NCBI RefSeq assembly: GCF_000423465.1 | Contig: NZ_KE384025.1 | Coordinates: forward strand, 25,367 to 60,076 | Length of the DNA stretch: 34,710 nt | DNA from: Propionicicella superfundia DSM 22317 | GTDB taxonomy: Bacteria; Actinomycetota; Actinomycetes; Propionibacteriales; Propionibacteriaceae | Direction of reading: 5' to 3' | In this document: one piece after another, positions 19,181 to 23,702 of the stretch | Position numbering within the stretch: position 1 is the first letter of the stretch | How the letters are laid out: each line of letters starts with the position of its first letter | Notes under the pieces: generated by a model | Database searches by the model: none | Seen by the model: only the letters and a program-made list of their open reading frames with translations | What the model was told of the DNA's origin: nothing | Position numbers and translations under genes: made by a program

Positions 19181-19270
19181 GGCGTAGCTACGCTCCGGGC
19201 CACGACGCTACGCCAAGGCCGCGATGCTACCGGTCCCCCAGTAGCTTCGCGGCCGGAGCGTAGCTACGCC
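19181..19270. repeat. 90-base palindromic element, copy 1
   Basis: Perfect 18-base inverted arms, GGCGTAGCTACGCTCCGG (19181-19198) and its complement (19253-19270), enclose an inner hairpin (GCTAC near 19226 facing GTAGC near 19241). A second copy of the whole element lies at 22997-23086. No coding content. Confidence 0.85.
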
Positions 19271-21568: not shown

Positions 21569-21609
21569 GACCGTCCGGGCCTGCCGCCGGAGCAGCAGCC
21601 CGAACGGTC
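21569..21609 (-). terminator. Terminator hairpin of the TetR gene
   Basis: GACCGTCCGGGC (21569-21580) pairs with GCCCGAACGGTC (21598-21609) over 12 bases with one wobble and a 17-base loop. The stem begins at the stop codon itself. Confidence 0.6.
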
Positions 21610-22213
21610 AGGTCGCGGGCTCGGACGGCGGACGGTCGTCGCCGACGTGGCGAACGTACGGCTCGAGCAGTTCCCGGACGAGGCGCCGCACCTCGGGCGC
21701 GGGGGCTCCGGCATCGAGCATCCGCGCCCCGGTGAACGCCAGGGACTGGATCAGCTCGGCCATCCGTGCGGGCTTCTCGACGCCGAGGTCGGTCAGGGCG
21801 CGGGTGAGCGGGATGCGGATCGACTCGTGCGCCATCCGGCCGCTGTGGCGTCGTCCCTCGGCGCCGACGAGCCCGAGGACGATCGCGTGGTCGCCGCGGG
21901 CGATCAGGCGCAGGTTGGCGTCGACGTACTCGAGGACCCGGTCGGCCGGGTCGTCGACGGCGTTCATCGCCTCGTCGACGTACGCGACCCACCCGGGGAA
22001 CGCGTCGTGCACCGCCGCCACGATGAGATCGTCGCGGGAGGCGAAATAGGAGTACACGGCCGGACGCGACATGCCGACCCGCTCGGCGACCTCGCCGATG
22101 CTGGGTGGTTCGCTGCGCCCGGGCTCCGCGAGGAGGCGCCGGGTGGCCTCCAGCAGCGCCTCTCGTCGCGCGGCGCGATGCTCCGCGACGGTGGGCGCGT
22201 CGATCTTGGGCAT
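21608..22213 (-). CDS. TetR/AcrR-family transcriptional regulator
   Basis: A 201-residue repressor-type protein. The N-terminal HTH reads ppSIGEVAERVGMSRPAVYSYF with a preceding helix (AARREALLEATRRLLAE), as in TetR proteins; the C-terminal helical part would bind a ligand and dimerise. ATG at 22213 is preceded by TAACCT (22220-22225) with 6 bases between, so the gene is probably leaderless. It is divergent from the cobalamin riboswitch transcript. No target is evident; the mannosyltransferase gene is the nearest same-strand neighbour downstream. Confidence 0.9.
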   Translation of the reverse strand: MPKIDAPTVAEHRAARREALLEATRRLLAEPGRSEPPSIGEVAERVGMSRPAVYSYFASRDDLIVAAVHDAFPGWVAYVDEAMNAVDDPADRVLEYVDANLRLIARGDHAIVLGLVGAEGRRHSGRMAHESIRIPLTRALTDLGVEKPARMAELIQSLAFTGARMLDAGAPAPEVRRLVRELLEPYVRHVGDDRPPSEPAT

Positions 22214-22283: not shown

Positions 22284-22311
22284 CCTCGACCCGCTCCGAC
22301 CGGGCTATAGT
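22284..22311 (+). promoter_or_regulatory. Promoter of the riboswitch transcript
   Basis: TATAGT at 22306-22311 is a near-consensus -10 box, with CTCGAC at 22284-22289 as a weak -35 at 16-base spacing. Transcription would start just before the aptamer. Confidence 0.5.
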
Positions 22312-22314
22312 GGC

Positions 22315-22405
22315 GGGCGTCGAGCGGTGCGGAAGTCGGTGAGAATCCGACACGGTTGCGCCACTGTGAGGGATGACCCGAGTCAGACCTGCATCGCCTC
22401 GTCGC
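22315..22405 (+). ncRNA. Cobalamin (B12) riboswitch
   Basis: The conserved landmarks of the B12 aptamer occur in order: GGTGCGGAAGTCGGTGAGAA then TCCGAC (22324-22349), CGCCACTGTGAGGGATGA, and the B12-box-like GAGTCAGACCTGC near the 3' end. These match actinobacterial cobalamin riboswitches, which repress the following gene when adenosyl- or another cobalamin is bound. The next strand-matched ORF has only 27 codons and no B12 or cobalt gene follows, so the target is missing or unrecognised. The limits given are approximate. Confidence 0.85.
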
Positions 22406-22450
22406 AGTCTTCCGATCGCGGGCCGCACCAGCCCGAAAGGAGCCGCCCCA

Positions 22451-22534
22451 ATGTCGCACCTCGTTCCTCCCGTGCAGGCACCGTCCGTTGCAGCGGTCGC
22501 CCACCCCGAGCGGTCGCGCGCAGGCACCCACTGA
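22451..22534 (+). CDS. 27-residue ORF directly after the B12 riboswitch
   Basis: ATG at 22451 has AAAGGAG eight bases upstream, a good ribosome site, and opens a short frame, MSHLVPPVQAPSVAAVAHPE and seven further residues, ending at TGA 22532-22534. It is the only start-plus-ribosome-site combination I see after the riboswitch. It could be a leader peptide, a genuine small protein (HPE and SHL histidines might bind metal), or the surviving 5' end of a deleted riboswitch-controlled gene. No family was recognised. Confidence 0.4.
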   Translation: MSHLVPPVQAPSVAAVAHPERSRAGTH

Positions 22535-22996
22535 TCTTTCCGGGCCCGGCCGTGTCCCCGCGGGCAGGCGACCCGTCGGCGAGCGTCCTGGCGACGCCGC
22601 ACGACCCCCACAGACCTCGGCGCGGTGTGTCGAACGTACGTGTCGAGTCCAGCGTCCGGTCCGGCGCGTGGAACGCCGGGCCGGACGCCCTTTCCGGCCG
22701 CGGCCGGAAGTGACCAACGTTCTCTGCTGGGACGCCGGAATGATCGCAGAACTGACCAACCGCCTCGTCCTGGCCGGGGTGAGGTTGGCGTCGGGCCGGG
22801 AGCGCCTCTCGGCGCGAGGCCGCTCGTAGCGGCGAGTGTTGGAGCCCGGGGCTACCGCGGCCCGACGCCGAGACGAGGATAGGCGCCCGGAGCCCTGGGG
22901 CCAAGCTCATCGTTCACCGGCAGCAGTCCTGCCGTCCCGGACAGGCCCTTCCGGCGTGGTGACCGCCAGGTTGTGCGAGGCTCGGCCTGCACCGTC
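22535..22996. other. Non-coding stretch with hairpins after the riboswitch
   Basis: No supported gene. TGACCAAC occurs twice (22711-22718 and 22753-22760), bracketing a 34-base segment whose ends are inverted (GTTCT and AGAAC). Further on are two hairpins: GCCTC/GAGGC (22804-22808, 22816-22820) and GCCGCT-cgt-AGCGGC (22819-22833). This could be the tail of a non-coding RNA, but no known RNA family was recognised. Confidence 0.35.
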
Positions 22997-23086
22997 CGCG
23001 TAGCTACGCTCCGGGCCAGGACGCTACGCCAAAGCCGCGACGCTACCGGGGGACCGGTAGCTTCCCGGCCGGAACGTAGCTACGCG
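22997..23086. repeat. 90-base palindromic element, copy 2
   Basis: Arms CGCGTAGCTACGCTCCGG (22997-23014) and 23069-23086 are inverted copies with one mismatch. The interior closely matches copy 1 at 19181-19270 (shared GACGCTACGCCAA, GCTACCGG and TAGCTTC). It ends 13 bases before the 3' end of the next minus-strand gene. Confidence 0.85.
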
Positions 23087-23099
23087 AAAGCCCGCCCGA

Positions 23100-23702
23100 T
23101 CACTCCAGCGATCCGGCCCGCCAGAGGCGCGCGCATGCGGCGAGATCGGCCGCCAGCGTCTGCAGTCGTGCCGCCCGGCGAGCCGAACGCGTGCCCTCCG
23201 ACACGTCGGCGCGCCCCGACGTGACGACGAGGCAGAACGCCGCGGCCCGCTCCAGCGCGATCGCCAGGTCACCGGCGAACACCCCGCGCAGGATGTCGTC
23301 GGCGACCCGCCGCACTTCGTCCGGCCCGGGCGGGTCGACGCCGGCGACGACGTGGTTCGGCTCGGTGAAGCGGATCCCGGCGGCGTACTCACGCGCCGCC
23401 GTCTCGGGATCGCGCTGCACCCATTCCCGCAGCAGATACAGACGCCACAGCGCTCCGGGCAGACTTCGAGCGGGCCGCGTCGACCACAGCTCGGCCAGGG
23501 TCGACAGACCGATCTCGTCGGTGAGCGCGATGAGTCGCGCCAGTACCTCGGGATCGTCGGCGGCGCGCCCGGCGCGTACGAGGACGGCCGCGGTCTCGTG
23601 CGCCGCGTGCATCTGCTCGATCGGGTCGGATCCCTCTCCCAGAGCCTCCAGCGCCGCGGGCTCCCGATAGCTCGGGCGGCGCGGCCTGCCTGTGTCACTC
23701 AC
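23100..23702 (-). CDS. Conserved hypothetical actinobacterial protein
   Basis: A 200-residue soluble, mostly alpha-helical protein. It starts with a basic Pro-rich segment (RPRRPSYREPA), then helices with GEGSDPIEQMHAAHETAAVL, and W/R-rich helices (LWRLYLLREWVQRDP). I recall similar proteins in Microbacterium sometimes labelled RNA polymerase beta subunit, which nothing here supports. The start GTG at 23702 follows a TAGCCT box (23709-23714) by 6 bases, so it is leaderless. Function unknown. Confidence 0.7.
   Translation of the reverse strand: MSDTGRPRRPSYREPAALEALGEGSDPIEQMHAAHETAAVLVRAGRAADDPEVLARLIALTDEIGLSTLAELWSTRPARSLPGALWRLYLLREWVQRDPETAAREYAAGIRFTEPNHVVAGVDPPGPDEVRRVADDILRGVFAGDLAIALERAAAFCLVVTSGRADVSEGTRSARRAARLQTLAADLAACARLWRAGSLE

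Follow-up and report, generated by a model that had tools for sequence, protein, structure and literature searches.

A cbtBA-type cobalamin riboswitch that has probably outlived its operon in Propionicicella superfundia

A well-kept adenosylcobalamin (AdoCbl, B12) riboswitch is present on the plus strand at positions 22305-22444 of the stretch of Propionicicella superfundia DNA analysed here (34,710 nucleotides; hereafter the window), and no recognisable target gene follows it. Its nearest relatives in the Propionibacteriaceae precede cbtB, a member of the cbtBA cobalt-transporter pair. The explanation favoured here, with a probability of about 85%, is that the cbtBA coding region has been lost and that the intact leader and a stub of cbtB remain. 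An ordinary leftover of gene loss is considered most likely because the cobalt-uptake genes controlled by such switches in the relatives are missing here. We infer the loss event itself, the mechanism of the loss and any present activity of the switch from the comparisons described below.

The aptamer, its expression platform and its promoter

A search of 951 bases with the AdoCbl covariance model RF01482 gave a plus-strand match at 22305-22444 (42.6 bits, E 2.7e-6) that spans the whole model (1-149 of 149), and the element scored 23 bits with RF00174 in a whole-genome search. Both scores lie below the Rfam gathering scores (50 for RF01482 and 31.5 for RF00174), and an Rfam scan of the window at the gathering scores listed nothing. 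A score below threshold, which the initial annotation had named as grounds against its own claim of a cobalamin riboswitch, was thus formally obtained, but this threshold does not discriminate among the leaders of the family: a B12 riboswitch match at E<=0.01 is found in 17 of 19 CbtB loci from the same bacterial family, while only one of the 19 passes a gathering score, the other 18 having no match above it. The gathering score is therefore little informative here, and most cbtBA-type B12 leaders of the Propionibacteriaceae are missed by it.

All 22 named base pairs that were tested form in the window element, those of the kissing loop and of the hairpin at the ribosome binding site included, as compared to 19 to 22 in the relatives. 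The L5 loop bases TGCG (22357..22360) pair with 22424-22427, which are the loop bases CGCA of a hairpin at 22419..22435 that constitutes the putative expression platform, and the hairpin is immediately followed by the ribosome binding site AAAGGAG (22436..22442), which was read from the sequence and aligns with the ribosome binding sites of cbtB genes. Conservation of the pairs was assessed in an alignment of 13 rows, comprising the window element and 12 of the 18 cbtB leaders. The 22 pairs are formed in 92.3% of the cells, as against 28 to 49% in controls in which the pairing was slid, and 15 cells are changed on both sides (shuffled mean 6.4). Two of the five covariation measures did not stand above the shuffles, namely the pairs changed on both sides (4 versus 3.1) and the further pair types (8 versus 9.8). 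The pairs of the platform hairpin are kept in 87.7% of the cells, with its outermost pair absent in 8 of the 13 leaders; at the level of single pairs, 10 of the 13 rows lack the kissing pair 46-186 and 8 lack the hairpin pair 178-194. The covariance match, together with the helices and the kissing interaction, argues for a real member of the cobalamin/AdoCbl riboswitches (clan CL00101), in agreement with the original assignment.

In the relatives, judging from the anatomy and from what is known of the family, the L5-L13 kissing loop, which involves the hairpin next to the ribosome binding site, should close when adenosylcobalamin binds, and CbtB and CbtA would be made only when B12 is scarce. 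The position of the ribosome binding site next to the kissing hairpin points to translational control rather than transcription; for another bacterium, a review reports that coenzyme B12 suppresses cbtBA 43-fold, an effect ascribed there to transcription (PMC8123684).

The leader promoter claimed initially was borne out in part. Of 12 related cbtB leaders, 11 carry a TAnnnT counterpart of the -10-like box TATAGT (22306..22311, plus strand), placed 51-59 bases upstream of the core, at a background of 6 in 6500 positions, but a scan with the promoter consensus, for which a -35 box is required, returned no site resembling a promoter.

Kinship of the leader and the missing transporter genes

Searches with the leader DNA were performed in 198 genomes of the family, with the best 8, 4 or 2 candidates per genome scored, so that a distant copy may be missed. 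The three top matches (genomes G017, G086 and G096; 72.5, 70.7 and 69.8 bits, the next being 59.9) were also the top three in an earlier sample of 97 genomes, and the leaders in all three precede cbtB, as identified by Pfam for G017 and G086 and by a profile for all three, G096 included. The match in G017 and G086 covers 22331 to about 22445, from the aptamer to the ribosome binding site, whereas most of the other DNA matches are confined to a core of about 40 bases. In operon-wide blastn comparisons with the relatives, similarity stops at about 22445, just upstream of the ATG.

A FastTree phylogeny was constructed for 47 leaders (19 of cbtB, 10 of cbiM and 18 others including that of the window). 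The tree excludes six loci that carry no recognisable core as well as truncated or duplicated leaders, and the leader sets do not include two CbtB loci, one with an unparsed start (L091) and one with no riboswitch match (L087). The window leader groups with those of G017, G086 and G096 with a support of 0.95, within a wider clade (support 0.944) of 14 leaders consisting of the window leader, 12 cbtB leaders and one cobT leader. Kinship with the cbtBA type is thus shown by the tree and by the best DNA matches. The clade is not exclusive to cbtB: in one relative (locus L162 of genome G141) a leader of this clade lies directly before cobT instead of cbtB, an arrangement which suggests that cbtB-type leaders can switch genes. 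CbtB itself is patchy in the family, occurring in 18 of the 198 genomes.

The Propionicicella superfundia genome (3.6 Mb) is about 98% complete, and the element lies in the interior of its contig, 47.6 kb into 60 kb, with a TetR-like gene (21608-22213) on one side and the gene at 23100-23702 on the other. A whole-genome search found no CbtB above the cut-off (best 13.5 bits against a cut-off of 27) and no match to CbtA at E<=10, which upholds the earlier statement that the riboswitch has no recognisable target gene, a 27-codon stub being all that follows it. Three other B12 riboswitches in the genome score above the RF00174 cut-off and precede a tetrapyrrole methylase gene (L001), a gene for a family 5 solute-binding protein (L002) and cbiM (L003). 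CbiM is therefore kept, right behind a B12 riboswitch of its own, and cobalt is presumably imported through it. Three further B12-riboswitch-like matches in the same genome (L004, L006 and L007) lie below the cut-off.

The short open reading frame and the region behind it

An open reading frame of 27 codons and a stop (22451-22534, plus strand) follows AAAGGAG at 22436-22442, confirming the short frame with a strong ribosome site noted earlier, and its start occupies the position of the cbtB start in the relatives. An N-terminal CbtB profile built from 12 of the 18 CbtB proteins gives its N-terminus 7.2 bits; of the ATG-started peptides drawn from 118 kb of this genome, 2 of 1670 score as high, as do 2 of the 175 that start with MS. 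The match is short (14 residues) and partly compositional, with a composition bias of 4.2 bits. The full CbtB profile gave no signal over the region behind the leader, and the CbtB proteins compared share a membrane helix and a His/Cys motif at the C-terminus, both of which the reading frame lacks. Since it begins like CbtB, the frame is read as the truncated 5' end of cbtB. What would remain after the loss of cbtBA is then the -10 box, the aptamer, the ribosome binding site and the beginning of cbtB, namely its start codon and approximately 14 to 20 of its initial codons, running on to a stop. Transcription of the switch may persist, as may its control over translation of the stub, which could give a peptide of no more than 27 residues that would have no transporter function.

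The initial annotation offered the peptide as one candidate for the regulated product, and this survives only insofar as translation of a cbtB stub may continue. That the peptide is a true product or leader peptide regulated by B12, with its translation under riboswitch control, is improbable, although the strong ribosome site and the intact platform would suit it and translated short reading frames are reported to work with B12 riboswitches in Mycobacterium tuberculosis (PMC11260477). Four genomes of one genus of the same family (g23) likewise have a B12 riboswitch, then a reading frame of 14-24 residues, then cobT. In the known cases, however, a same-strand gene lies downstream, while the gene that comes next in the window lies on the minus strand, with no codon-position signal in between; in addition, the start of the frame is CbtB-like, the peptide is not known from any other genome, and the DNA searches covering the frame (best candidates per genome) match relatives only up to about 22445. 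In the g23 loci (L046/L168, L049, L167 and L169) the short reading frame contains Cys and is separated by a similar spacer from the cobT-like gene, confirmed by Pfam for L046 only, and the arrangement looks like a pair of riboswitch and upstream reading frame.

A leader so well kept, yet followed by no recognisable gene, calls for either a recent loss or continued use, and recent loss is the simple answer. The corresponding alternative, in which the leader was kept by selection after cbtBA was lost and now serves a new role through a B12-gated, histidine-ended peptide of 27 residues or a short RNA, is about as improbable as a regulated peptide. Ongoing selection on the leader, should there be any, would make it a case of switch reuse.

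Loss of the operon may also have left a trace of cbtA. In 15 relatives, the distance from the start of cbtB to the stop of cbtA is 996 to 1375 bases. A stretch at 22692..22829 on the plus strand, ending in TAG, is a possible remnant of the CbtA C-terminus, although the evidence is suggestive only: the tblastn match of CbtA to 22692-22817 reaches 25.0 bits, while other parts of the same 1.3 kb reach 24.6. The CbtA profile was built from 15 CbtA proteins of 18 parsed CbtB loci, and a C-terminal profile from 11. The C-terminal profile, chosen after the first match, ranks the stretch 13th of 2991, its score being reached by 30 of 2000 shuffled sequences and in 14 of 992 windows of the genome. The full-length CbtA profile was negative on the region (844 of 2000 shuffles do equally well), and the stretch did not stand out when 118 kb of this genome were searched by tblastn.

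Beyond the short frame, the roughly 450 bases previously described as having no coding signs retain that appearance. Codon-position GC over 22535-23000 is flat (0.74/0.77/0.69), which is different from the flanking genes, and Pfam at E<=1 returned nothing for five reading frames tested in that interval. The hairpins reported after the frame are also present. One, seen in both structure and sequence, is a perfect 15-bp stem-loop (22652..22688, plus strand) that may mark the end of a short transcript; it has no T-run, and a search for T-run terminators found none. Another, at 22986-23099, is a palindromic repeat of about 90-110 bases that is interspersed in the genome: a further copy lies at 19182-19269 of the window, and matches at E<=3.6e-13 occur at 26 or more other sites (among the best 40 of 151 candidates scored). 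Insertion of this repeat as the disrupting event was rejected, as it lies about 450 bases past the stub and splits no recognisable gene. A short motif, TGACCGCCAGGTTGTGCG, at 22960-22977 of the window recurs at numerous sites of the genome, with some pairs about 50 bases apart.

The minus-strand gene noted downstream proved to be a conserved one: it lies convergently at 23100-23702 and has matches in 89 of the 198 family genomes (its own included) with up to 77% identity. Its protein has no Pfam match above the cut-off, no NCBIfam match and no match to a B12-related family. A non-coding RNA under riboswitch control was proposed initially with Listeria and Enterococcus as the precedent, and found no positive evidence; it would, for example, be an antisense RNA against this gene or base-pair elsewhere. 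The layout is similar to that of Listeria pocR, where a B12 riboswitch likewise faces a convergent gene (PMC9943018); however, the RNA of 22310-22700 folds no better than its shuffles (z 0.02), and the 15-bp stem and the palindromic repeat stand between the leader and the gene. The convergent gene, for its part, has no B12-related family match and, despite being present in 89 of the 198 genomes, has surroundings that were shared with none of the 20 compared, and the survey of antisense cases treats those beside pseudogenes as fortuitous (PMC9943018). Such a role is thus very unlikely, slightly more so than that of the peptide.

Gene order was examined over 10 to 17 kb in each of 20 relatives carrying the 23100-23702 gene, using the other 13 reading frames of the window (some of which may not be genes) as queries at E<=1e-8, and no match was obtained; the order around the site is thus not shared with these relatives. 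The unshared gene order and the interspersed repeats nearby would fit a leader copied from elsewhere together with the first cbtB codons, cbtBA never having been at the site, but this is the least credible account, since the genome has no donor cbtB and a loss would be needed too, and decay in place would be favoured by the weak CbtA-like stretch, whose order and strand are right. A plasmid search with 22284-22850 found no match.

Loss of the operon and comparison with known systems

Deletion of the target gene, one of the possibilities raised at the outset, thus accounts best for the region: the leader is of the cbtBA type, both genes are absent from the genome and the short frame starts like CbtB. 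Against this stands that the deletion is not seen directly, as no relative among those compared is close and shares the gene order. On this reading the locus would provide a clear example of a riboswitch outliving its operon, and it cautions against equating an orphan B12 switch with a regulatory RNA.

No description of an orphan cbtBA leader was found in the literature, as judged by titles and abstracts. The closest known counterparts are the AdoCbl riboswitches of cbtBA operons in the same family, with which the window element has in common the aptamer, the kissing loop, the ribosome-site hairpin, the position of the -10 box and the place of the start codon; it is different from these operons in having cbtB reduced to a stub and cbtA unrecognisable. 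In Listeria, an antisense RNA to pocR is placed under a B12 riboswitch (PMC9943018), and there too the aptamer faces a convergent gene, but the convergent gene of the window has no B12 link and the transcript is hypothetical. In Mycobacterium tuberculosis, a translated upstream reading frame is likewise linked to a B12 riboswitch, and is reported to modulate a same-strand gene (PMC11260477), whereas the window has none downstream. The nearest precedent is that of Cutibacterium acnes, in which B12 riboswitches before pseudogenes are reported (PMC9600381). The two cases are alike in that a B12 riboswitch precedes broken or unknown genes, and differ in that the pseudogenes of C. acnes are described as adhesin fragments (PMC9600381), while the lost target here is most likely a cobalt transporter. 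The present locus is thus a new instance of a B12 riboswitch standing before broken genes.
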